Part shown: positions 5,594-56,689 of the stretch, one piece after another
Layout of the letters: each line of letters begins with the position of its first letter
How positions within the stretch are numbered: the stretch's first letter is position 1
Assembly: GCA_003671255.1 (NCBI GenBank)
Contig: QWPF01000004.1
Location: 1-56,689 of the forward strand
Direction: 5' to 3'
Length of the DNA: 56,689 bases
From: Planctomycetota bacterium
GTDB taxonomy: Bacteria; Planctomycetota; Planctomycetia; Gemmatales; Gemmataceae
Translations under genes and position numbers: made by a program
Notes under the pieces: generated by a model
Database searches by the model: none
What the model saw: only the letters and a program-made list of their open reading frames with translations
Told to the model about the DNA's origin: nothing

Positions 5594-6337
5594 ATGCGTA
5601 TTGACGGAAGAAAACCGAATGAACTGAGGCCCTTGCGTTTCAAACGCAATTTCACCAAACAAGCTCCGGGTAGCGTTTTAGTTTCATGCGGAAAAACTAC
5701 CGTCCTTTGCACCTGCACTATTGAGCAATCTGTTCCTCCCTTTTTATTAGGCAAAGGAAAAGGCTGGCTTTCTGCAGAATATTCCATGCTTCCGGGAAGT
5801 ACGGGAAGACGAAAACCTAGAGATCGTGCCGGCAAAGTTGATGGTCGTAGCGTCGAAATCCAAAGACTCATTGGCCGAAGTTTACGAGCTATTGTAAATT
5901 TAGAAAAACTTGGTGAAAGAACTCTTTGGATTGATTGTGATGTTTTAGATGCAGATGGGGGTACAAGAACCGCAAGCATCAATGGCGCTTTTGTTGCCAT
6001 GGTTGATGCATTGCGTTCGCTAGAAAAGAAACCATCTGACAAACCACTTGCCCCTATTAATGAGATTCTAAAAGATAGCATTGCCGCCATTAGCTTGGGC
6101 ATTGTTGATAACAAAGTATTGCTCGACCTTTGCTACGAAGAAGATGCTGGCGCCGAAGTTGATAGCAATCTTGTAATGACAGGTAGCGGCATGTTCATTG
6201 AAGTACAAGCAAGTGGGGAAGAATCAGTATTCGACCAAAAACAGCTTGACAGCATGTTAAAGCTGGGGAAACAGGCAATTGGGGAAATAAAATTAGAGCA
6301 AATGAAGGCGTTAGGAAGCAATTGGCCTCTAGACTAA
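5594..6337 (+). CDS. rph: Ribonuclease PH
   Basis: Phosphorolytic 3'-to-5' exoribonuclease that trims tRNA precursors. The 247-residue protein starts with MRIDGRKPNELRPL, and has SVLVSCGKTTVLCT, the long conserved basic stretch around GSTGRRKPRDRAGKVDGRS, ERTLWIDCDVLDADGGTRTA and DLCYEEDAGAEVDSNLVMTG, all hallmarks of RNase PH and not of PNPase. Length is typical. It is co-transcribed with the arginine genes by spacing. No functional link to arginine is obvious. Confidence 0.95.
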   Translation: MRIDGRKPNELRPLRFKRNFTKQAPGSVLVSCGKTTVLCTCTIEQSVPPFLLGKGKGWLSAEYSMLPGSTGRRKPRDRAGKVDGRSVEIQRLIGRSLRAIVNLEKLGERTLWIDCDVLDADGGTRTASINGAFVAMVDALRSLEKKPSDKPLAPINEILKDSIAAISLGIVDNKVLLDLCYEEDAGAEVDSNLVMTGSGMFIEVQASGEESVFDQKQLDSMLKLGKQAIGEIKLEQMKALGSNWPLD

Positions 6338-6433
6338 TTTAATTTTATTTGTTATGAGACTCTCATCTAATGACTAAAGTTGTGGTTCGGAAAAGCCGGG
6401 CACAAAGTTTTGGTTGATTAAATGGAGGTCAAG

Positions 6434-7408
6434 ATGCGTCTTTTTGCATCCGTAATTTTAAGTGCTTGTATCTTTGTAGTTTCCGGCATTGCCAACACAC
6501 AAACGACAAAAAATGCCTACCCGCTAACAGTTGAAGCAGGAACCTGGCTGATATGCTGTGGAAGTTATTCGGGAATAGATGCCCCGGAATTATCAAAACA
6601 ACTTACAGAAATTCTCAAAACGCGTGATAACCTCACGGCTTACATTTTCAATTATGGTGAAGAAGAAAAGAAAAAACAAATCGCAGACTTTGAAAGACGC
6701 CAAAAGATGAGCCCGGAATTAAGGCAACCCATGAAGTTTACCCGCGTTTCAGAACAATGCGCAGTATTACTGGGTGGTCACAAAGATATTGAAGATGCCC
6801 GTAAAAATCTGGAAAAGATCAAAAAACTTCCAGCTCCAGATTTAAAACTAGAGAATGGAAAAGAAACTGCTGATGTAATTAATATTTATGTTCCAACTGC
6901 AGACAAAAAAGGCGCCGAAATCCGCAGAGAAAGAGTTAACCCTTTCTCAAGGGCTTTCGTTGTAAGAAACCCCCTCATTCCTAACCAAATTATCGCAAAT
7001 AACAAACCTGATCCAGTTCTTAAAACACTCAACGCAGATGAAAAATACAGCCTCCTGAAAAATTCCAAACCCATCACATTAGTGGTTAAAGAATATAATG
7101 GCTCCGCAGTTCTCCAATCAACCAAGCCCATAACTACTTCATTCATGGATAAGTTATTTGGAAGCAGACAAGGGGATATGCTCAGTGCTGCAGCTATGCA
7201 AGCCCACGAAACAGCCAGAGTTCTAAGGAAACTGGAATTTGATGCCTATGTTTTGCATACGCGAACAAGCAGCATTGTAACCGTGGGAGGCTTTGATTCA
7301 CGCGAAGACCCTAATATCGCACGAATCCAAAAAGCCATTACCACACTTAAAATTTCAGCTTTAGACCTTTACACCAGCCCATTACCCATGGAAGTACCAA
7401 AGCTTTAA
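6434..7408 (+). CDS. Secreted protein with SPOR-like repeats, function unknown
   Basis: A 324-residue protein with a signal peptide (MRLFASVILSACIFVVSGIA). The region near residues 30-140 (TWLICCGSYSG...AVLLGGHKDIEDA) and the region near 245-315 (LEFDAYVLHTRTSSIVTVGGF...ARIQKAI) both read like the beta-alpha-beta-beta pattern of SPOR-type domains, each with an aromatic strand followed by an aligned Gly-Gly-Phe or Gly-His turn. This is my reading and not a confirmed hit. Start 6434 is preferred over the in-frame ATG at 6422 because GGAGG lies 7 bases before it. It is 96 bases after rph and ends at a terminator. Confidence 0.75.
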   Translation: MRLFASVILSACIFVVSGIANTQTTKNAYPLTVEAGTWLICCGSYSGIDAPELSKQLTEILKTRDNLTAYIFNYGEEEKKKQIADFERRQKMSPELRQPMKFTRVSEQCAVLLGGHKDIEDARKNLEKIKKLPAPDLKLENGKETADVINIYVPTADKKGAEIRRERVNPFSRAFVVRNPLIPNQIIANNKPDPVLKTLNADEKYSLLKNSKPITLVVKEYNGSAVLQSTKPITTSFMDKLFGSRQGDMLSAAAMQAHETARVLRKLEFDAYVLHTRTSSIVTVGGFDSREDPNIARIQKAITTLKISALDLYTSPLPMEVPKL

Positions 7409-7426
7409 ACACTTCTAAATCATACT

Positions 7427-7681
7427 TTAGCCCGGCTTATTAAGTCGGGCTTTTTTATTTATACCTAAATTATCTTTCACCTTAAACACATCTAAACAAA
7501 GTTCTTCATCCGTATGTGGGCTAGAATGGCATCCATGATTAAATATCGGGATCAAAGTTATTCCTAAAATTAACAAATAAAAAACTGTACTCTCAACAAC
7601 CTTGATTACCATCAGAGCAGCAGGTTGCTTTATTTGAAGCGAGGCTAGAACCCTCTGTTTATTGGATTTGAAAAGCTGCAT
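7427..7681 (-). CDS. Doubtful small membrane protein
   Basis: An 84-codon frame with one plausible membrane segment (VVESTVFYLLILGITLIPIF) followed by a Cys/His-containing tail. Against it: no Shine-Dalgarno sequence is visible at either candidate ATG, and its last codons run into the terminator of the opposite gene. It may be a chance frame in an AT-rich spacer. Confidence 0.2.
   Translation of the reverse strand: MQLFKSNKQRVLASLQIKQPAALMVIKVVESTVFYLLILGITLIPIFNHGCHSSPHTDEELCLDVFKVKDNLGINKKARLNKPG
7429..7457 (+). terminator. Rho-independent terminator closing the arg-rph-SPOR unit
   Basis: AGCCCGGCTT pairs with AAGTCGGGCT (10 pairs, one G-U) around a short AT loop and is followed by T6. 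It starts about 20 bases after the stop at 7408. Confidence 0.85.
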
Positions 7682-7772
7682 GACTTAATCTGCTAAAAAG
7701 AACAAATTACTTAACACTTCTTAAATTAACATAATTAAACTAAACACACCAAATTTTAATAGCCAGACTAAC

Positions 7773-7809
7773 TCAATATATTGAATACTGTATAAGAATA
7801 GATTCAATA
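7773..7809 (+). promoter_or_regulatory. Palindromic promoter-like region before the Nudix-like gene
   Basis: A perfect 12-base palindrome TCAATATATTGA (7773-7784) overlaps an inverted repeat TATTGAAT (7779-7786) / ATTCAATA (7802-7809). A -10-like TATAAG at 7791-7796 lies between the arms. This layout fits an operator over a promoter, but no good -35 box is seen. Confidence 0.35.
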
Positions 7810-7831
7810 AAATTGGCAGGAAAACAGGGCC

Positions 7832-8422
7832 ATGAGCAAAGCAAGTATATTAGTAATAGCAAGAAATCATATTCCAGAACAACTATTAAAACATGGATTT
7901 AACCCTGCATCCGAAAGCATGGTAAAAGCAATGCTCGAAAACCCCCAATTGTTTTTCATGGATAGAGATTTAGCTGAAAACGACCCAAACTATAAACAAT
8001 TGATTCCCTATGTGGTGTTTCAAAGCCCAAAAGGTTTTTTCAACTATCAACGGGGAAAAGCCAGTTCGGAAACCAGGCTACGGCTTCTTCGCTCTCTTGG
8101 AGTTGGAGGACACATCGAAAAAGAAGACGGCGACATAGGGCAAAGCAGTTATTTAAAAGGCCTTTGGCGCGAACTCAATGAAGAAGTAGGAGTTGGCCCC
8201 TCCAACAATATAAAACTTTTAGGCTTTATTAATGACGACTCCAATGATGTGGGTAAGGTACATCTCGGAATCGTTCATTTATACCAAATCGAAACCTCAG
8301 ACTTGGAATCAAAGGAACTAAATTTAACTGATTGCAAATTTTCAAGCATACAGGATATAAAAACCAACGAAGAATCGTTTGAGACATGGTCCCGCCTTAT
8401 GATGCCTTACCTCGACCAATAA
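7832..8422 (+). CDS. Nudix-like hydrolase with a divergent Nudix box
   Basis: A 196-residue protein. The centre reads GVGGHIEKEDGD...LWRELNEEVGV, matching the C-terminal half of a Nudix box (REUxEExGU) used to bind Mg2+ and hydrolyse nucleoside-diphosphate-X compounds. The Glu expected seven residues before the REL is replaced by Ser, so the box is not canonical. The N-terminal 75 residues (ILVIARNHIPEQLL...YVVFQSPKG) form a domain I recognise from phosphoesterase-type Nudix proteins but cannot name. CAGG lies upstream of the ATG. It is monocistronic. Confidence 0.75.
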   Translation: MSKASILVIARNHIPEQLLKHGFNPASESMVKAMLENPQLFFMDRDLAENDPNYKQLIPYVVFQSPKGFFNYQRGKASSETRLRLLRSLGVGGHIEKEDGDIGQSSYLKGLWRELNEEVGVGPSNNIKLLGFINDDSNDVGKVHLGIVHLYQIETSDLESKELNLTDCKFSSIQDIKTNEESFETWSRLMMPYLDQ

Positions 8423-8425
8423 AGA

Positions 8426-9247
8426 CTATTTGGGAATATTAACTGAAAAATCGATAACCAGACTATCCCTCATGGCAGTTTGAATCCAAGAAGAATATTT
8501 TGTTTTAAGGATAGTTTTTCTTTGGTCAATTTCTTGGAAGGCTAAGCTTTCATTGTCAGACAATGGCCCCCAAATTATTTTAAAAGGAACTTTTTCTGAA
8601 TAAACCAAAACCAAGCCATCCTTCATCTCAATCAAACAATCCTTGGGTAAAAGTATTTCGGCCAGATAGCCCAAAATTTTAGAGCAAGAAATAACCTGAT
8701 CATTTTTCCATTGGATACCAGCTTTATCCGTGGGAAAAGGCAAAGGTGTAGCTAGAACAGGCAATCCAATTTGCATAGCATTTATTGGCAAAATAACACC
8801 ATTAACATCAACAACTCTAAACTTTTCCGCTGTATTAATTTCGACCTTTTCTTGAACTAATGGAACAACCATGGCCGGAACCCGAAATTCTAGAACTACT
8901 TTTAGATTATTCGCCCCTTCTCTTTGTATTTCTACAACTTTATACACCCAAGGATGAAGTTGGAAAGCTGCAAAAATTCTGCCCAATATGCCTTCTTCCA
9001 ACACATCAACATCTTCTTTCAAATTTCCTAGGTAGCGAACTTCATTTAGAAACTCTTCTTTAGATAAGACTGCGGGAGAAGGACTGTTAATATTTGAAAA
9101 AGCAAGCAAAGAATTATGACGAGAAACGATTAATTTATTAAACGAGTAATCAGCTTTAGATAAAAAATAGATAAAAAAACCACATGAGATGAATGATAGA
9201 ACAACTACTAAACAAAACCCTAACCAAGAGAAGATAAGTTTTTTCAC
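8426..9247 (-). CDS. FtsQ/DivIB-like cell-division membrane protein
   Basis: A 273-residue protein with one N-terminal membrane segment (LGFCLVVVLSFISCGFFIYFL), then a POTRA-like region (AAFQLHPWVYKVVEIQR...LEFRVPAMVV) and the FtsQ hallmark RVVDVNGVILP...GLPVL. The C-terminus (KIIWGPLSDNESLAFQEI) also fits FtsQ beta-domains. In other bacteria ftsQ follows murC-murB-ddl, and here it follows murB by 23 bases, which supports the call. The GTG start is preceded by GGGTAAT. No ftsA or ftsZ is nearby, which would fit Planctomycetota. It might be a generic POTRA protein. Confidence 0.65.
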   Translation of the reverse strand: MKKLIFSWLGFCLVVVLSFISCGFFIYFLSKADYSFNKLIVSRHNSLLAFSNINSPSPAVLSKEEFLNEVRYLGNLKEDVDVLEEGILGRIFAAFQLHPWVYKVVEIQREGANNLKVVLEFRVPAMVVPLVQEKVEINTAEKFRVVDVNGVILPINAMQIGLPVLATPLPFPTDKAGIQWKNDQVISCSKILGYLAEILLPKDCLIEMKDGLVLVYSEKVPFKIIWGPLSDNESLAFQEIDQRKTILKTKYSSWIQTAMRDSLVIDFSVNIPK

Positions 9248-48475: not shown

Positions 48476-48506
48476 TTTGATAAGAACGCTTGAAAGGACT
48501 CGAATA

Positions 48507-49445
48507 GTGCGAACACTCGTTACAGGCGGTGCTGGATTCGTAGGATCTCACCTTTGTGAAACTTTTTTGGCCATGGGCCATGAAGTTATCTGCGTTGATA
48601 ACTTCATTACCGGATGCCTAGGAAATGTTGAACATCTTAGAAACAATCCGCAATTCAGTTTTATTCGCCACGATATCAGTCACCACCTAGAAATCGATGG
48701 CCCAATCGATAACATCTTGCACTTTGCTTCTCCCGCCAGCCCGGTTGATTATCTCAAACACCCCATTCCAACTCTTAAAGTTGGGTCTTTGGGCACCCAC
48801 AACACCCTAGGTTTGGCAAAAGCCAAAAACTCATCCTACCTCTTGGCAAGCACCAGTGAGGTTTATGGCGACCCCGAAAGACACCCACAAAGCGAAGATT
48901 ATTGGGGGAATGTTAACCCTATTGGCATTCGTGGTGTTTATGATGAAGCTAAGCGCTTTTCTGAAGCTATGGTTATGGCCTACCATCGTTACCATAACAT
49001 TAACACACACATCATTCGGATATTTAATACTTATGGTAATCGCATGAGACTGGACGACGGCAGAGTGCTACCTAATTTCATGGGCCAAGCACTGAGGGGA
49101 GAACCTTTAACTGTATACGGAGATGGTTCCCAAACCAGAAGTTTTTGCCATGTTGACGATTTAGTGGAAGGCATCACAAAGCTATTGTTCAAAGATTTTC
49201 ATGAGCCGGTAAATTTAGGTAACCCCAGCGAAGTAACTATACTGGAATTCGCAAAAGAAATACTTGATTTATCAGGGAGCAAAAGCCAAATCATATTTCA
49301 CCCCTTGCCTCAGGATGATCCGAAGGTGCGAAAGCCCGATATATCAAGGGCAAAAAAGCTTTTAGGATGGGAGCCAAAAATACAACGAACCGCAGGGTTA
49401 ACAAAAACCCTGAAGCACTTCCAAGAAAAAATCGCACGAAAGTAG
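48507..49445 (+). CDS. NAD-dependent epimerase/dehydratase, UDP-glucuronate decarboxylase-like
   Basis: Extended SDR enzyme that probably makes UDP-xylose from UDP-glucuronate for glycan synthesis. The 312-residue protein has the Rossmann [60 protein letters not shown], catalytic Tyr and Lys in [32 protein letters not shown], and [20 protein letters not shown], all close to UXS. Start GTG 48507 is chosen because AAAGGA lies about 8 bases upstream and the Rossmann strand begins at once; an in-frame TTG ten codons earlier is less likely. Confidence 0.9.
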
Positions 49446-49612: not shown

Positions 49613-49679
49613 AGTCTACTAAGGTTTTGCTGTTTTCAAAAGGGTTGACAAGATGCTAACGCTTATTAAGGGGATTTTC

Positions 49680-50507
49680 ATGTCAGGGACTTTGTCACGG
49701 TTTTCTGTTATTTTACTTGTTCTTGTTGCATTTTTATTCAGCACGAATAGTTCCTATGCCTTTCAAGAAGGAGCGGCTCCTGCTGCTGAAAAGAAAGATG
49801 ATGGAGAAAATAAACCTGCCCAGAATACCAGTTTATTCATGCACATTCTTAAATCTGCAGGATGGGTTTTCGGTCCACTTATTATGGCTATTTCCATTGC
49901 ACTTATTGCGCTTGTTTGCCTTTTGGCGATGGAACTACGCATGGTAACATCAATTCCACCCAATTTTGTCGAAGAATTTACCGACCTTGTTAACAAAAAA
50001 CAATTCAAACAAGCTTTCGACATCGCCAAAGAAGATGGATCATTCCTTGGCAGAGTGATGAGTCAAGGAATGTCTAGGCTTCAATATGGTATCGAAGATG
50101 CCAGAGAATCTGCCTACAACATGGTTGACAGCATCAAAGCCAGCAAAGAAGTATCAATCACCTATCTTTCAACTATCGGAACACTTGGGCCCCTGATTGG
50201 TTTGGTTGGAACCGTATTTGGTATGATTCTTAGCTTTATGGAACTTGGCAGGCCCGGTTCTACACCAAGGCCAGATAAACTTGCAGATGGTATTTCCCAT
50301 GCACTTGTAGTTACTCTTCTTGGGATTGGGCTATCCGTACCAGCGATTTTCTTTCATGCATTTTACCGCAATCGATTAATTAAAATTTCGATGGATACTA
50401 GCTTGATCGCAGATGATCTTTTAACCCAGATGTATCACAGCACCAAAAAAGCCGCTGGGCAACCTGCCGCGCCTACAGCAGCAGGTGCAGGCGCCCCTGC
50501 AAAATAA
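49680..50507 (+). CDS. exbB: ExbB/TolQ/MotA-type proton channel subunit
   Basis: A 275-residue inner-membrane protein of a proton-driven motor. It starts with a signal-peptide-like segment (FSVILLVLVAFLFSTNSSYAF), then a short charged loop, a first helix (SAGWVFGPLIMAISIALIAL), a cytoplasmic domain (IPPNFVEEFTDLVNKKQ onward), and two pore helices with the conserved Thr/Gly pattern: YLSTIGTLGPLIGLVGTVFG and ISHALVVTLLGIGLSVPAIF. The C-terminal tail is Ala/Pro-rich. Start 49680 has AAGGGG before it; an in-frame ATG nine codons earlier is less likely. It is first of exbB-exbD-exbD-X-toroid. Confidence 0.9.
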   Translation: MSGTLSRFSVILLVLVAFLFSTNSSYAFQEGAAPAAEKKDDGENKPAQNTSLFMHILKSAGWVFGPLIMAISIALIALVCLLAMELRMVTSIPPNFVEEFTDLVNKKQFKQAFDIAKEDGSFLGRVMSQGMSRLQYGIEDARESAYNMVDSIKASKEVSITYLSTIGTLGPLIGLVGTVFGMILSFMELGRPGSTPRPDKLADGISHALVVTLLGIGLSVPAIFFHAFYRNRLIKISMDTSLIADDLLTQMYHSTKKAAGQPAAPTAAGAGAPAK

Positions 50508-50572
50508 CTGCCTATAAGTAGGGCCAAAATTGAAATGGTCTTTACTAGTCATGGTTGTTTTATAGGGCAGTT
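50506..50572 (+). repeat. Long-range hairpin between exbB and the first exbD
   Basis: AACTGCCTATAA (50506-50517) pairs with TTATAGGGCAGTT (50560-50572) with one bulged base, enclosing 42 bases. It starts at the exbB stop codon and ends 38 bases before exbD. No T tract follows. It could be an mRNA stability or processing element that lets exbB be made in excess. Confidence 0.6.
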
Positions 50573-50610
50573 AAAGACTAAGACAAAACTCAAACAGGGG
50601 TTAAAGTAGC

Positions 50611-51138
50611 ATGAGTCATGGTGGATCTAGCGAAGGAAACATGGAACCGAACCTCACTCCGCTTTTGGATGTGGTGTTGCAGCTTCTAATGTTTTTCATG
50701 ATGTGCGTTAATTTTGTTACCAACCAGGTATCCGAAGAAATTGTACTTCCAGAATCTATGTCTGCTGTGCCCATGGACAAGAATGAAGTCGATGTTTTGT
50801 TCGTTAATGTTCGGCCTTTTATACTCAAGGATTATGAATCCAAAGGTGCTACCGCTCTTCAAAAACTTACCGATAAGTTTAAAGAGGGCGACCCCTTTAT
50901 CATTATCCTTGGTGAAGAACCCATGCGATTCAACGAATTTAAGTTCTGGTTAAGAAACCAATTCAACACCCTTAAACGAACAAGTAAAGATGGCAAAGTA
51001 AAAACCACAATCGTTATGCGAGCACACAAACTTACTGATTATGACCAGGTTTATCGTGTCTTGCAAATGTGCAAAGTTGAAGGTTTTAGGCAAATCAAAC
51101 TCCGGGCTGTAACAAAGAGCGTGGCACAACCAATATGA
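50611..51138 (+). CDS. exbD: ExbD/TolR-type motor subunit 1
   Basis: A 175-residue protein with one membrane helix carrying the proton-relay Asp (D20 in NLTPLLDVVLQLLMFFMM), then a periplasmic ExbD domain (VSEEIVLPES, GEEPMRFNEFKF, and KTTIVMRAHKLTDYDQVYR near the C-terminus). AGGGG lies upstream of the ATG. It pairs with a second exbD that overlaps its stop by four bases (ATGA). Two different ExbD subunits suggest a heteromeric motor. Confidence 0.9.
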   Translation: MSHGGSSEGNMEPNLTPLLDVVLQLLMFFMMCVNFVTNQVSEEIVLPESMSAVPMDKNEVDVLFVNVRPFILKDYESKGATALQKLTDKFKEGDPFIIILGEEPMRFNEFKFWLRNQFNTLKRTSKDGKVKTTIVMRAHKLTDYDQVYRVLQMCKVEGFRQIKLRAVTKSVAQPI

Positions 51139-51656
51139 GTAAGCACAAGAACGAAGAACCATCACCGGAAGTTATATTGCCCATCACTCCCATGTTGGAC
51201 ATGGCTTTTCAATTGCTGACATTTTTTATATTCACTTACAATCCTTCAGGGATGGAAGGTCAGTTTGATTTAAGCTTGCCTTCCGATAATGAAGCTGCTG
51301 CCAAGGAAACCAAAACACCTCCTCCTCCCCCAGATCCTGATGCTCCTCCAAAAATCGAAGCTGATGTTACAATTGTGGTGGAAGCCGTCACCGATGATAT
51401 CAATCGTGGTGAAATAGCAAAAATACATATCAAACAGAATTCTGGTTCGGTCATCGTGGGAGATCTCAAAGAGCTGTTTGAAAAACTCAAACTAGCCAAT
51501 GAGACTGCTACTGAAAAAGAGGTTGTTAAAATTCAGCCTGCAAGTAAGCTTAAATGGGCTAATGTTGTCATGGTAGCAGACACTTGCCGCAAAGCTGGTT
51601 TCAAAAATGTCAGTTTTGTTGAACCTCCGGGATTCAACATCAGCGTTGTTAATTAA
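51135..51656 (+). CDS. exbD: ExbD/TolR-type motor subunit 2
   Basis: A 173-residue paralogue of the previous protein. The membrane helix has D22 in ILPITPMLDMAFQLLTFFIF. After it comes a stretch ending in a proline run (KTPPPPPDPDAPP, about residues 60-73) absent from the first copy, then an ExbD periplasmic domain (ADVTIVVEAV..., KLKWANVVMVADTCRKAGF). The start overlaps the previous stop, so translation is coupled. The Pro-rich insert could reach towards the cell wall. Confidence 0.9.
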   Translation: MSKHKNEEPSPEVILPITPMLDMAFQLLTFFIFTYNPSGMEGQFDLSLPSDNEAAAKETKTPPPPPDPDAPPKIEADVTIVVEAVTDDINRGEIAKIHIKQNSGSVIVGDLKELFEKLKLANETATEKEVVKIQPASKLKWANVVMVADTCRKAGFKNVSFVEPPGFNISVVN

Positions 51657-51674
51657 TTATTTCAGGCACGAAAG

Positions 51675-52874
51675 ATGGCTAAGCACAACAACACTTGTAA
51701 AATCATTGCCTTGGGTTTTCTGTATCTCGTTTGTACATTTCCAACTAAAACCGCCCATGCGCAAGACATTGACACGGTCCCTTTATTTCAGCTATTTCAG
51801 CCAGAACAAAGCTATTTAGCAACCCTTTGTATTGGCTCGGGAACCACGCCAGGAATCGGTCTTTTAGGCTCTCTTTCCACTTTGGTTAGTGGGGACGATG
51901 CAGGTTTTAATATCTGGTCTTTTAGCGCACCTTTTTCTTCCAGAAGAGATAAAACCCTTCTCGCTACTTGCGGTTTAATTCTTTTACCTGCTGGTTCTGC
52001 TATGGCTGGAATTGAATCAATTAGCTTGCTAAAGATTGGCGATGAGGAAGATTTTTGGTCTTTGATTAATTCTGATGTTGTTCGACCGATTCCCGAAGAA
52101 TTCCTCGAACGGGTAAAAGATGAAAAGCCTATTTACGGGGCTTCTTTTGATGACTTGGAAGCCTCTGCTTATTGCGAATTCGTGCTGATGGCTTATCAAA
52201 CTTCGGCATTAGCCTTCACACAATCGGCTCGTAAAGATCTCACTTTTTCCGATCTTATGGTCAAACCCAAGACTAATCGAGGCGAGGTCGTTGAGATCAA
52301 AGGAAGACTAAGGCGCCTGAGAAAGATTGTGCCACCCGTTGCATTATACAATGTTGGTGTTTCCGAGCTTTACGAAGGCTGGGTCTTTCAGGAAATGTAT
52401 GGCCCTAACCCTGTTTGTATTCTGCTGACGCAATTGCCTGACAACATTCAACCTTTTGAAAAAAATGACTACCTGATTGAATTCCAAGGCTACTTTTTCA
52501 AAAAATATCGTTACATGACAGCAAATAGTGGTAGCGAAAACCCTTGGAAAGATACCCCTTTAATAATTGGGAAAACTTTAAAAGTTACAAGAGGGTCTAT
52601 CGACTCTCCCGAAGAAGGTGTTTCTTGGGCAAAAGGACTTCTGCCTTTGTTTACCGGGGTATTTTTGGTTTTCCTTTCAGGAATTATAGGACTGATTGTT
52701 TGGTTTATGCGTGGCGACCGGAAGATTACAACCCGGTTAAGAAACAGGCAAATCGAAGTTGATCCTATTTTCAAGGATTATTCGGAAAATACAGGGAACC
52801 AAATGGGTATTTCAGCGTCTAAGTTACCAGATAACGACTCTGGAAATTCAACCTTTCCAAATTACAGGATTTGA
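51675..52874 (+). CDS. Exported single-span membrane protein of the exb operon, function unknown
   Basis: A 399-residue protein with a signal peptide (IIALGFLYLVCTFPTKTAHA), a large extracytoplasmic part, and one C-terminal helix (LLPLFTGVFLVFLSGIIGLIV) followed by a basic cytoplasmic tail. A hydrophobic stretch near residue 95 may be a second helix. The middle holds a beta-rich module, VVEIKGRLRRLRKIVPP...LYEGWVFQEMYGPNPVCILL...YLIEFQGYFFKKYRYM, that looks like an OB-type barrel. I do not recognise a named family. It lies 18 bases after exbD2 and 60 before the toroid gene, so it is likely part of the same machine. Confidence 0.8.
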   Translation: MAKHNNTCKIIALGFLYLVCTFPTKTAHAQDIDTVPLFQLFQPEQSYLATLCIGSGTTPGIGLLGSLSTLVSGDDAGFNIWSFSAPFSSRRDKTLLATCGLILLPAGSAMAGIESISLLKIGDEEDFWSLINSDVVRPIPEEFLERVKDEKPIYGASFDDLEASAYCEFVLMAYQTSALAFTQSARKDLTFSDLMVKPKTNRGEVVEIKGRLRRLRKIVPPVALYNVGVSELYEGWVFQEMYGPNPVCILLTQLPDNIQPFEKNDYLIEFQGYFFKKYRYMTANSGSENPWKDTPLIIGKTLKVTRGSIDSPEEGVSWAKGLLPLFTGVFLVFLSGIIGLIVWFMRGDRKITTRLRNRQIEVDPIFKDYSENTGNQMGISASKLPDNDSGNSTFPNYRI

Positions 52875-52934
52875 TTGATTTCTCTAACCATACATGCAAT
52901 AATTAATTATCAATAAAGTTTAGGAGAGTTATTC

Positions 52935-54755
52935 ATGTCACAAAATTACATTGTTAAAGGCACAATCAAATCAACGGGGAAGCCCATTGAATCCAAGATT
53001 GTTGCTCAAAGTGAAAAAAACGCTGAAATGATCGCCCGTGACAGGGGGATCGAAGTTACCTCCGTTTGGCTCGAAGGAACTGTACCCGCGATTGCGGCCA
53101 CCAAACCCGTTATGGGGTTGGCGGTATTTGCAGGCATTGGCCACGAAGCAGGCCGCGTTGAACTTTCCGAAACACTTCAAGATAACAGTGGTTATGCAAA
53201 TATTATTTGGGCCATGGGGGCAGGTGTTATTAGTGCTGCAATGCACGGCTTGCTGATTCTCTTAATTATGCTTATTCCCTTTGAAAACGCTCCAGTTCAA
53301 GCTGCCAAGCTTGATGAACCAACTAAAATCGAAGAATCCGAACCAGAACCCGATCTCACAATAACAGACATCGGCAACGATATCGAAGTTCCTACGCAAT
53401 ACAATGTGGATCGCAAAGATGAGATGAGTGTGCCCGGCCCTGAAGATCCTTCTCAAACCGTTGGCATTCCCAATTCACCTGAAACTGTCGCTTCTAATGT
53501 TCCTCCCCCTCCAGGTTTTGGCGGTGGTACAGGCGCTGCTCCCTCTTTGGATGTTTCTGGCCTTGGCAGTAATGTTGGTTCAATTGGTGGAATGGGCGGG
53601 GTTTATGCCCCCGGTGGTATTGCAGGCCGCAGCGGTGCTACTCGTGAAAAACTTCTTAACGAAGGTGGTGGTAATGCCCTTTCCGAAGCTGCTGTTGCTC
53701 GTGGACTTAAATTTTTTGCCCTGCACCAAGCCGATGATGGGCATTGGTCACTTGATAAATACGGTGATCATTATCGAACTGCACCAATCGGAAATCCTGC
53801 TTCCAAAATAATCAAACACAATACGGGTGAAAAAGCTCAAAGTAACGATATCGCAGGAACAGGCTTTGGTTTATTACCTTTTCTAGCTGCAGGTATCACA
53901 CATAAACCTTCGGGTAAAAAATCTCAGGAAGACTACAGCAAAACCGTTATGGGTGGGGTTAACTTCCTTATTAAAAAACAAGGCAAGGATGGTAATTATG
54001 GAGGTGGGCTTTACTCTCACCCCTTGGCCACCATTGCTATGTGCGAAGCTTATGGCATGACAAGCGACCCCCTTATCAAAATCTCTGCTCAAAGAGCCCT
54101 AGACTATTTGATTTATGCCCAACATGATGGTGGTGGCTGGCGCTATGGCCCCAAACAAGCAGGCGATACATCTGTTACTGGTTGGTGCACTATGGCATTA
54201 AAGAGCGGCCAAATGGCTGGCCTTAAAGTTCCTACCGAACGATACAAAATGGTTGAAAAGTATCTTGATGGTGTACACGATCCAAAATCTGGTGGCTATG
54301 GCTATACCGATCCCGGTGCAGCTCCTGCTATGACCGCTATCGGTATGCTTTGCAGGCAGTACATGGGTGTTAACCCAAGAAACCCCGGCCTTTTAAAAGG
54401 CGTGGAAATTATGAAAAAGATTCACCCCGGCGTTAGCCCTGCGAATTACAACATGTACCAAATTTACTATGCAACTCAGGTTATGCACCATATGTGTGGG
54501 GAAGCTTGGGATTTCTGGAACCTAGGCCCCGAAGTTGCTGGAGTTCGTAAAAACGGGGTTCGTGATATTTTAATTGCCAAGCAGGTTCAAGGTGCAGATC
54601 CTAAAAAGATCATGCTCTCTGGTAGCTGGGATGCTCTTGGCGCTCACGCCGATGCTGGTGGTAGGATTATGGCTACATCCATGGCTCTTCTTACCATGGA
54701 AGTTTATTACAGGCATTTGCCTTTGTACCGCCGCGAGATGGGCGGAGCGAAGTAA
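52935..54755 (+). CDS. TonB-like membrane anchor fused to a squalene-cyclase/prenyltransferase alpha-toroid
   Basis: A 606-residue protein. Residues 1-48 (QNYIVKGTIKSTGKPIESKI...) form a small cytoplasmic beta-alpha module. A single helix follows at about 90-115 (WAMGAGVISAAMHGLLILLI) with S100 and H104 in S-x-x-x-H-G, the same pattern as the Ser16/His20 pair in the TonB helix. Then comes an acidic Pro linker (EESEPEPD, VPGPEDP), a Gly-rich stretch, and from about 250 to 600 a squalene-cyclase-type alpha-alpha toroid (EAAVARGLKFFALHQADDGH, KKQGKDGNYGGGLYSHPLA, AQHDGGGWRYGPKQAGD). The cyclase Asp motif DxDD is not seen, so catalysis is doubtful. AGGAGA precedes the ATG. It ends the exb operon. 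Confidence 0.88.
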   Translation: MSQNYIVKGTIKSTGKPIESKIVAQSEKNAEMIARDRGIEVTSVWLEGTVPAIAATKPVMGLAVFAGIGHEAGRVELSETLQDNSGYANIIWAMGAGVISAAMHGLLILLIMLIPFENAPVQAAKLDEPTKIEESEPEPDLTITDIGNDIEVPTQYNVDRKDEMSVPGPEDPSQTVGIPNSPETVASNVPPPPGFGGGTGAAPSLDVSGLGSNVGSIGGMGGVYAPGGIAGRSGATREKLLNEGGGNALSEAAVARGLKFFALHQADDGHWSLDKYGDHYRTAPIGNPASKIIKHNTGEKAQSNDIAGTGFGLLPFLAAGITHKPSGKKSQEDYSKTVMGGVNFLIKKQGKDGNYGGGLYSHPLATIAMCEAYGMTSDPLIKISAQRALDYLIYAQHDGGGWRYGPKQAGDTSVTGWCTMALKSGQMAGLKVPTERYKMVEKYLDGVHDPKSGGYGYTDPGAAPAMTAIGMLCRQYMGVNPRNPGLLKGVEIMKKIHPGVSPANYNMYQIYYATQVMHHMCGEAWDFWNLGPEVAGVRKNGVRDILIAKQVQGADPKKIMLSGSWDALGAHADAGGRIMATSMALLTMEVYYRHLPLYRREMGGAK

Positions 54756-54780: not shown

Positions 54781-54811
54781 AAGGGCCTGTTGGATTTTCC
54801 AACAGGCCCTT
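54781..54811 (+). terminator. Hairpin terminator after the exb-toroid operon
   Basis: A perfect 14-base stem (AAGGGCCTGTTGGA with TCCAACAGGCCCTT) with a TTT loop, 25 bases after the stop. The tail ACTATTTT is only weakly T-rich. The stem is the longest perfect one in the window. Confidence 0.75.
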
Positions 54812-54915: not shown

Positions 54916-54943
54916 GGCATAGATTTAACTCTATGCCGGGGGA
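54916..54943 (+). promoter_or_regulatory. Leader hairpin directly before the Shine-Dalgarno of the Pro/Thr-rich protein
   Basis: GGCATAGA (54916-54923) and TCTATGCC (54930-54937) form a perfect 8-base stem with loop TTTAAC. It abuts GGGGGA (54938-54943), the ribosome-binding site for the ATG at 54951. A structure here could affect initiation. Confidence 0.4.
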
Positions 54944-54950
54944 TTCGATC

Positions 54951-56689
54951 ATGTTGCGCAAATTATGGCTTAGCTCCCTGCTTTTAGCACTTACTGGAAC
55001 AACCATTGGGTTGGCTTATTCTGAAACCCCGAGCAATAATGAAATACAAAAGCCAAAAGACCGGTTTTTAACCGTAAATGAAAAAGGGAAACCTTCAATA
55101 AAATGCAAGCTTATCTTAGCTTGGACCAACAAAACCGGGCAGCAATGCTATTTAGTAGAAACTGTTGAAACGGGTGCAAAAATCACCATCGTTCAAAATC
55201 CAGCTTCCTCTAAAACACAAAATTCAACAACAAATTATCACTGGGCAAACGCCATTACTCCGCCAGCGAATTCACCTATTCCTCCTGAATATAACATCGT
55301 AAAATCTACCCCTTCACATAAAGAACCTGTAAAAGTTGAGGCAAAAACTGCGGTTAATAATTCAACCGTTGTGCCCATGCAAACTGCTATCCAAAAAAAC
55401 AACCCTCCTTTGAAAATTGAAACTGCAACTATTAAAAAAGACGTTGATACTCCAAGTGGAAAACCCTTGGCGACAGAATTCATCACCATTCCCGCACCAG
55501 GCGCTGATAAAATCGTTGTCGTTCCAGAGAAAAGCAAAAAGTTCTTTGCTGCAAAAACTCCACAATCCAACACCGACAAAATAATCGTTCTTAAAGAAGA
55601 AAAAAACCTCATTGCCACCAGCACTGGGCCAGAAAAAGTTATATCCATCACTGAACTCCCCAACAAAACTCCTTTACTTGCAAAGCCAAATAATAAAACA
55701 GCGACTTCTTCGAGTTCAAGCACTCAAATAATTGCTCCTCCTGATGCAAGCAGCGTTGCTAACAAAAGTGAATCTAAAGTAGCAGAACCCTTGCCACCCA
55801 AGACGGTAAATAAAACCCCCACTGCAATAACCTCGCTTCCAAATGAAACAAAAAAACTTGAACTGGAGCAACCCAAAGCTCAAGATTGGCGTAAGTCTTG
55901 GGGCAGGATGGATTCCTCCCAGGAAAAAACCAATATCACTAAAGCTCAACCTGCTGATGCTGAACTTCCTCATGCAGATAAAACCAAACCTGATCCACTG
56001 AAAAGCGTTGACTATCTGCATCCTAAGCTAGAAGAAAAAATATCCAAAAAAGCCGTAAAAGCTGTGGGAAAAGAAAGCTCCAACAAAGAAGTTGAAGCAA
56101 TTGTTTCTGGGGGCATTGCGCCAAAAACTACTGCAGAACTTGCAGAAAATTCACCACCTAAAACTACTCCCAAAATTACTCCTAGCGTTTCGCCTACAAA
56201 AACCTTAAAAAACACCCCAATAGAAACACCAACTGAAACTCTTAAAGTTACACCCAAATCAACACCCAAAACCACCCCCGTTGTTAAAGTTAAAAACAGC
56301 CCAAAAATTATTTCAGAAAGCGTTGAAACTACTTCTCCACTTCCCATCGTTGTCATCAAAGAACCCAGACAACCGAGAATCCTTCTTACCAAAAAGAATG
56401 ATCCTGCCGAGCCTAAAACTCCAGATATTCTTGACCGTACCATGGGGCGAATTTTTGGGTTCTTGGAAAAGCCTAAAGCAGTTAACACAAATGAAGATAA
56501 AGCCCCTCCAGGAAACGGTTCGGTTATAGCTGCGGGCGCTCCCCCTGTTCGAATGATTCCTTTCCAACCCAATGGCCAACCCTTGGGCGCACCTCCTACT
56601 GCGCACATGTTCACTCCTCCACAAGCGCCACAACTTTTCCCCAGCAATCCTTCAAATGTTTCAGTTGGGTCTAGATACCCAACTCAAGG
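54951..56689 (+). CDS. Secreted Pro/Thr/Lys-rich low-complexity protein (3' end cut by window)
   Basis: An open frame of at least 579 codons that runs off the window. It starts with a signal peptide (KLWLSSLLLALTGTTIGLAY), then a short ordered part with two Cys (IKCKLILAWTN and QQCYLVETVETGAK), and then a long low-complexity region rich in Pro, Thr, Lys, Ser and Asn, with runs of T-P-K/K-T-P type near residues 405-450 (KTTPKITPSVSPT, TPKSTPKTTP). The last 60 visible residues turn Gly/Pro/Gln-rich (PPVRMIPFQPNGQP). GGGGGA lies 7 bases before the ATG. It is probably extracellular or wall-associated. No family is recognised. It follows the exb operon but beyond its terminator. Confidence 0.85.
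   Translation, partial: MLRKLWLSSLLLALTGTTIGLAYSETPSNNEIQKPKDRFLTVNEKGKPSIKCKLILAWTNKTGQQCYLVETVETGAKITIVQNPASSKTQNSTTNYHWANAITPPANSPIPPEYNIVKSTPSHKEPVKVEAKTAVNNSTVVPMQTAIQKNNPPLKIETATIKKDVDTPSGKPLATEFITIPAPGADKIVVVPEKSKKFFAAKTPQSNTDKIIVLKEEKNLIATSTGPEKVISITELPNKTPLLAKPNNKTATSSSSSTQIIAPPDASSVANKSESKVAEPLPPKTVNKTPTAITSLPNETKKLELEQPKAQDWRKSWGRMDSSQEKTNITKAQPADAELPHADKTKPDPLKSVDYLHPKLEEKISKKAVKAVGKESSNKEVEAIVSGGIAPKTTAELAENSPPKTTPKITPSVSPTKTLKNTPIETPTETLKVTPKSTPKTTPVVKVKNSPKIISESVETTSPLPIVVIKEPRQPRILLTKKNDPAEPKTPDILDRTMGRIFGFLEKPKAVNTNEDKAPPGNGSVIAAGAPPVRMIPFQPNGQPLGAPPTAHMFTPPQAPQLFPSNPSNVSVGSRYPTQ

Follow-up and report, generated by a model that had tools for sequence, protein, structure and literature searches.

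What does a Ton/Tol-type motor act on when its putative force transducer ends in neither a TonB nor a TolA domain? This question is raised by five same-strand genes at 49653-54755 of contig QWPF01000004.1 (assembly GCA_003671255.1), of which positions 1 to 56,689 were analysed (the window). They belong to the 3.2-Mb genome of a planctomycete that was placed in the family Gemmataceae by its nearest named relatives, metagenome-assembled genomes of Planctomycetaceae/Gemmataceae. The genes are exbB, exbD1, exbD2, orf4, which encodes an exported protein with an OB fold, and a gene for a membrane-anchored alpha-toroid. We consider it likely that this operon specifies an envelope machine of Ton/Tol type that is driven by the proton-motive force and in which the toroid grips a periplasmic partner. 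Sequences and structure models establish its gene order, predicted domain architecture, motif conservation, motor co-occurrence and, for the genus, the lack of both TonB tips and TonB-dependent receptors, and coupling of the anchored toroid to the motor is well supported by the sequence comparisons; motor docking, force transmission and ligand binding are what we infer.

An earlier note, made by a model from the DNA letters alone, had read the last protein as a TonB-type motor anchor with a toroid replacing the TonB tip, and this reading is supported by the conservation of the helix motif, the adjacency of exbBD and the lack of conservation of the cyclase motif DxDD. All five open reading frames (ORFs) that it listed, namely exbB, two different exbD genes overlapping by ATGA, an exported single-span protein and a 606-residue protein, are present, with Pfam matches for exbB and exbD. 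Its start for exbB, 49680, has to be corrected: it is an in-frame internal ATG of a gene that begins at 49653.

According to the proposed mechanism, ExbB and the two ExbDs would form an ion-driven stator, and Ser100 and His104 would dock the one membrane helix of the anchor onto the rim of ExbB. A conserved island in the disordered linker would contact ExbD while the anchor reaches into the periplasm, where the alpha-toroid, in place of the TonB/TolA C-terminal domain, would grip its partner; the motor would then pull on this partner or release it. The OB-fold protein encoded by orf4 may be a dedicated partner in Gemmataceae.

The anchor and its proposed motor

The features are listed below. 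The AlphaFold2 model of the anchor was built on 74 relatives; pLDDT is the predicted local distance difference test score.

49653-50507, plus strand: ExbB/TolQ-like proton-channel subunit (PF01618, E = 2e-22; nearest solved relatives TolQ/ExbB)
50611-51138, plus strand: ExbD/TolR-like subunit 1, exbD1 (PF02472, E = 2e-16; proton-carrying Asp in TPLLDVVLQLLMFF)
51135-51656, plus strand: ExbD/TolR-like subunit 2, exbD2, a different paralogue (PF02472, E = 7e-15; Asp in TPMLDMAFQLLTFF)
51675-52874, plus strand: orf4, conserved exported single-span protein (no Pfam match; AlphaFold2 model; Foldseek matches to SSB/OB folds)
52935-54755, plus strand: anchored toroid, 606 residues, proposed force transducer (AlphaFold2 mean pLDDT 77.5)
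52935-53072, plus strand: predicted N-terminal cytoplasmic beta-beta-alpha-beta domain of the anchor, residues 1-46 (pLDDT about 88-97; no Pfam match)
53193-53270, plus strand: transmembrane helix, residues 87-112 (S100 codon 53232-53234, H104 codon 53244-53246)
53271-53621, plus strand: disordered Pro/acidic linker, residues 113-229 (from composition and pLDDT below 50 for residues 118-227)
53352-53468, plus strand: conserved linker island, residues 140-178 (DLTITDIG...YNVDRKDEMSVPGPEDPSQTVGI; possible ExbD-contacting 'motor box')
53622-54725, plus strand: alpha/alpha toroid, residues about 230-597 (pLDDT mostly above 90)
54781-54811, plus strand: strong predicted intrinsic terminator closing the operon (14-bp stem, 3-base loop)

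S100 and H104 lie in the same single membrane helix, as the earlier note had it. In the 74-row alignment the S100 column holds Ser in 45 rows and the H104 column His in 39 and Asn in 7; the remaining rows are mostly gaps, soluble proteins or Kiritimatiellae. The helix of the anchored relatives hence keeps Ser and either His or Asn, a conservation on which the earlier note had made its reading depend. S-x3-H or S-x3-N is present in every Gemmataceae anchor fetched, the sole apparent exception, L130, looking like a mis-set ORF start. Strong membrane segments from unrelated ORFs of the same loci served as a control: 3 of 945 (0.3%) contain S-x3-H, whereas 67 of 151 do so among the segments of toroid proteins, far more than chance would give. 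The E. coli counterparts, Ser16 and His20 of TonB, contact Ser34 and Trp38 of ExbB, and the motif recurs in TolA (PMC12215075). The switch between His and Asn needs at least four changes on a tree of 130 toroids. By the title of Swayne and Postle's 2011 work, as cited in PMC8928145, Asn is said to substitute fully for TonB His20, and the natural switches resemble an evolutionary repeat of this classic mutant result.

The motor proteins were assigned by a PF01618 match and equivalents of the pore threonines T148 and T181 for ExbB/TolQ/MotA, and by PF02472 matches and a membrane Asp in TPxLD for both ExbD/TolR paralogues. The strict Asp pattern was matched by 96 of 112 fetched ExbDs, and the unmatched ones whose span was seen also hold an Asp. 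Compared with E. coli ExbB (in a sequence whose key residues agree with those named in PMC12215075), the window ExbB keeps the equivalents of Ser34, Thr148, Thr181 and Pro190 and has Ile for Trp38 and His for Glu176. Toroid-linked ExbBs generally keep Ser34, both pore threonines and Pro190, and most of those from Gemmataceae have His at the Glu176 position (GISHALVVT).

In 42 Gemmataceae neighbourhoods, the toroid was present in all 42, exbB in 32 and the similarity cluster of exbD and orf4 in 39. Among the genuine neighbours an upstream NAD-epimerase comes next, with only 12 of these 42, and the operon itself is therefore the unit; other clusters in the neighbour list look like antisense frames of the operon. 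For anchored Gemmataceae toroids with at least 4 kb of upstream sequence, exbB or exbD was sought within 6 kb upstream and found for 35 of 42, versus 0 of 12 motif-less homologues shorter than 600 residues, mostly toroids with a signal peptide only (Fisher 1.5e-7, a value inflated by kinship among the sequences). One of the twelve, L138, probably stems from an anchored gene that a frameshift has split, which makes the count 0 of 11. Runs of exbB, exbD and toroid genes also occur beyond Gemmataceae, in Pirellulaceae, Lentisphaerae and Kiritimatiellae.

Several observations weigh against a motor-driven anchor. When only independent pairs are counted, 4.2 of 5 favour the link between anchor and exbBD and 0 oppose it, too few for significance. 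Anchored toroids lack adjacent exbBD in about a dozen loci of Pirellula type and in several of Gemmataceae. ExbB Trp38, the other TonB/TolA contact, is Val, Ile, Leu or Met in toroid-linked ExbBs. The motif is missing from Kiritimatiellae anchors (AxxxP), some of which nevertheless adjoin exbBD, and CxxxH replaces SxxxH in the longest Pirellulaceae anchors, which have three membrane helices. The expectation that toroid anchors always lie beside exbD thus holds for most Gemmataceae loci, soluble homologues lacking such neighbours, and fails for the Pirellula-type clade and a few Gemmataceae orphans.

Among these divergent cases, the Kiritimatiellae anchors at L089 and L094 adjoin exbB-exbD-exbD with an AxxxP helix, so that docking there must differ, Ser and His being missing. 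The three-helix CxxxH anchors of Pirellulaceae (L046, L048, L061-L063, L077, L084) lead to the toroid through a disordered linker, which is up to about 1100 residues long.

The orphan Pirellula-type toroids still carry the motif. In ten genomes bearing them, toroid matches number 8 to 16 and PF01618 matches 6 to 9 per genome. Comparison of coordinates by eye placed a toroid about 1-2 kb downstream of an exbB in 8 of these ten, so that motors may be shared. These numbers bear on a quite unlikely alternative, namely that the toroid protein is a sensor or plug that binds to the motor, transmits no force and makes ion flow depend on a periplasmic ligand. The docking evidence would apply to it equally, and the conserved residue set of the toroid (see below) could be a sensor site. 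Against it, most Pirellula genomes searched have more toroid than exbB genes, and the anchored toroids are often orphans, a pattern more in keeping with interchangeable arms than with dedicated plugs; very long linkers likewise fit reach.

The window genome (G000) has five PF01618 genes, its toroid-linked motor therefore being one of several. Another motor locus of this genome (L158) has exbD, exbD and exbB at 6825-8738 on the minus strand and, convergent with them, a 310-residue protein at 5887-6816 on the plus strand; the latter has a helix with Ser-x3-His (SFIVH) and no Pfam match, and is possibly another transducer with a tip of unknown kind.

The predicted linker is acidic and Pro-rich, as the earlier note had described it: residues 114-232 (119 residues) include 17 Pro and 18 Asp/Glu versus 5 Lys/Arg. 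Its island recurs in many Gemmataceae anchors, about 40-75 residues after the start of the helix motif, with the consensus LT..D.G ... R...V.VPG.V.P...VGI. A 'motor box' that pairs with ExbD has been described for TonB and TolA (PMC12204202), and a conserved island within disorder might, by analogy, serve such a pairing. In Pirellulaceae, linkers reach about 1100 residues, and the same toroid is found there downstream of exbB-exbD. Toroid proteins of about 1175 residues lie directly downstream of exbB-exbD in L155 (9471-12992) and L156 (2342-5875); that of L155 has PD40 (TolB-like) beta-propeller repeats between membrane helix and toroid.

The toroid tip and its possible ligand

From the single sequence the toroid relationship is weak, with a match to Pfam SQHop_cyclase_C at 0.001, below cut-off; by profile it is firm. 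The family profile matched squalene-hopene cyclase at 1e-21 and, less strongly, the thioester domain of TEP1 (1e-5), the closest solved relatives by profile being squalene-hopene and oxidosqualene cyclases. Foldseek places the modelled domain among (alpha/alpha)6 proteins, with squalene-hopene cyclase at the top and other type II terpene cyclases mixed with glucose-2-epimerase, GH76 and AprG. Profile and Foldseek matches and the model, with its high pLDDT, thus bear out the squalene-cyclase-type toroid that had been proposed to follow the linker.

Invariant or near-invariant residues comprise the structural Gly, Trp and Gln of QW-type repeats and Y360, E371, Y404, D411, S413, W417, Y457, Y511 and W528. 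A putative cleft was located by sequence position and secondary structure. The invariant residues are mostly at loops and helix starts and, to judge by the order of the elements, at one end of the barrel. This near-invariant set of Tyr, Trp, Asp, Ser and Glu is the reason why the toroid probably binds a ligand, and a defined ligand is the most likely partner in the proposed machine. As to its class, we would guess at a polymer of glycan or peptidoglycan type, or at a protein of the outer envelope that carries such a polymer.

The DxDD motif is absent from the window toroid, the matching segment reading SNDIAGT, and DxD[DT] anywhere in the toroid was found in only 15 of the 74 relatives. Hopanoid or sterol cyclization was rejected as a function, the catalytic DxDD not being conserved. 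The earlier note had taken the missing motif as an argument against an enzyme. The lack of conservation was confirmed; it excludes classical class II cyclase chemistry only, and the conserved residues leave room for ligand binding or another reaction.

The toroid might be an active periplasmic enzyme, with terpenoid, sugar or lyase chemistry, that is held near the inner membrane while the motor serves another part of the operon. The soluble secreted homologues speak for this, for they keep most of the invariant residues without a motor (differing at H362 and K423), so that the tip has a conserved task of its own, independent of the anchor. The Foldseek neighbours are moreover enzymes, and weak profile matches of the toroid point to pectate lyase and GH88. 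However, DxDD is not conserved, a passive tether would not select for an ExbB-contact motif, and linkers as long as those of Pirellulaceae fit reach better than catalysis. We regard such a tethered enzyme as unlikely.

Secreted toroids of about 370-480 residues without anchor or motor are found at L098 and L099, which are paralogues in the window genome, and at L141-L153. On the tree, some of the Gemmataceae ones nest among anchored toroids, suggesting repeated loss of the anchor.

The cyclase relationship by profile could also point to a toroid that carries an isoprenoid lipid (hopanoid, sterol or polyprenyl) through the envelope. This appears very unlikely, since the conserved residues are rich in Tyr and Trp together with Asp, Ser and Glu and are not greasy, and since the family is nearly phylum-wide. 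Homologues of the toroid domain, anchored and unanchored counted together, were found in 206 of 244 sampled Planctomycetota genomes and 149 of 173 genera, and they reach Kiritimatiellae and Lentisphaerae, in which we know of no general hopanoid or sterol synthesis.

Comparison with known envelope motors

PF03544 (TonB_C) matched neither the window anchor nor any of the 7 genomes of the genus, and PF00593 (barrels of TonB-dependent receptors) was absent from all 7, being present in 8 of the 21 genomes searched. Both profiles matched in the positive controls E. coli, Caulobacter and Bacteroides. Some of the seven are incomplete metagenome-assembled genomes, yet all seven agree. As the genus lacks both the tip domain and the receptors, the envelope motor, though of a familiar kind, probably performs an unrecognised task there.

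The locus shares with E. coli TonB-ExbB-ExbD (PMC12215075) the ExbB and ExbD families, the Ser-x3-His helix, the Pro/acidic linker that follows it and type II topology. It differs in having a toroid for TonB_C, a genus without TonB-dependent receptors, two different exbD genes, an extra OB-fold protein and an ExbB that does not keep Trp38. With TolQ-TolR-TolA it has in common that TolQ is the nearest solved relative of its ExbB and that TolA shows the same Ser/His helix and three-part build; by contrast, the window operon has no TolA C-terminal domain, TolB or Pal.

A precedent is that of Williams-Jones et al. 2025 (PMC12204202), who described force transducers with a vWA C-terminal domain in the Planctomycetes-Verrucomicrobia-Chlamydiae (PVC) group. 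There, too, tolQ and two unlike tolR genes are followed by a transducer with an SHLS helix, a disordered linker and an unrelated C-terminal domain, and the distribution is in PVC bacteria. The tip is vWA there and a toroid here, the upstream TPR gene occurs there only and the OB-fold partner here; the window anchor gave no vWA match, its fold being a toroid. A toroid-tipped transducer was not found in the literature searched, most subscription journals lying outside its coverage, and the main text of PMC12204202 does not contain 'squalene'. A motor-driven arm with an exchanged C-terminal domain is therefore already known (vWA, 2025), and the toroid version appears new and widespread in Planctomycetota.

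The toroid itself resembles squalene-hopene and terpene cyclases (PF13243/PF13249) in fold and in QW-type repeats, by profile and structure, and differs from them in the unconserved DxDD, the membrane anchor and the motor operon. The complement/alpha-2-macroglobulin thioester domain belongs to the same toroid superfamily by profile (the TEP1 match), but the window protein lacks both macroglobulin domains and the thioester CGEQ motif.

More broadly, the toroid would be a second unrelated tip domain, after vWA, for motor-driven arms of the envelope. It occurs in a phylum in which little is understood of envelope biology and of macromolecule uptake, and it suggests how to interpret many proteins whose only matches are to squalene-cyclase-like domains. 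It raises the question of what the toroid holds and whether holding requires the proton motor. A wider view, which we offer tentatively and consider rather doubtful as a whole, is that Planctomycetota have nearly phylum-wide proton-driven arms with ligand-binding toroid tips, several per genome and partly sharing motors, which would replace the Ton system in lineages that lack TonB tips and TonB-dependent receptors, and would haul or release an envelope polymer or lipid.

Accessory domains and neighbouring genes

The orf4 product has a signal peptide, a predicted OB-like five-stranded domain (residues 205-304, about 52287-52586) and a long C-terminal helix that includes the membrane span (residues 315-362). 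It accompanies the toroid across Gemmataceae, even in several loci without exbBD; its profile had no match in the Pirellulaceae loci examined.

Profile matches to the N-terminal domain of the anchor were found only in the window genus and its nearest neighbour, L037. In L109-L113, exbD2 encodes an extra small N-terminal domain and a long Pro/Ala-rich stretch. A small N-terminal domain common to the anchor and the ExbD2 of other genera was considered because of a resemblance by eye; pairwise identity was 29% over 31 residues and a mixed profile was promising, but an anchor-only profile missed it and the idea was not used. A Zorya-type defence system (ZorA/ZorB with ZorC/ZorD or ZorE) was also rejected, as ExbB is only a marginal ZorA match (0.004) and no other component was found.

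The NAD-epimerase gene upstream of exbB in the window (48477-49445) is UDP-glucuronate decarboxylase-like. Beyond the terminator, 54933-56689 encodes an exported Thr/Pro/Lys-rich protein of unknown family that runs off the end of the window; relatives of it sit near the operon in a few Gemmataceae loci.
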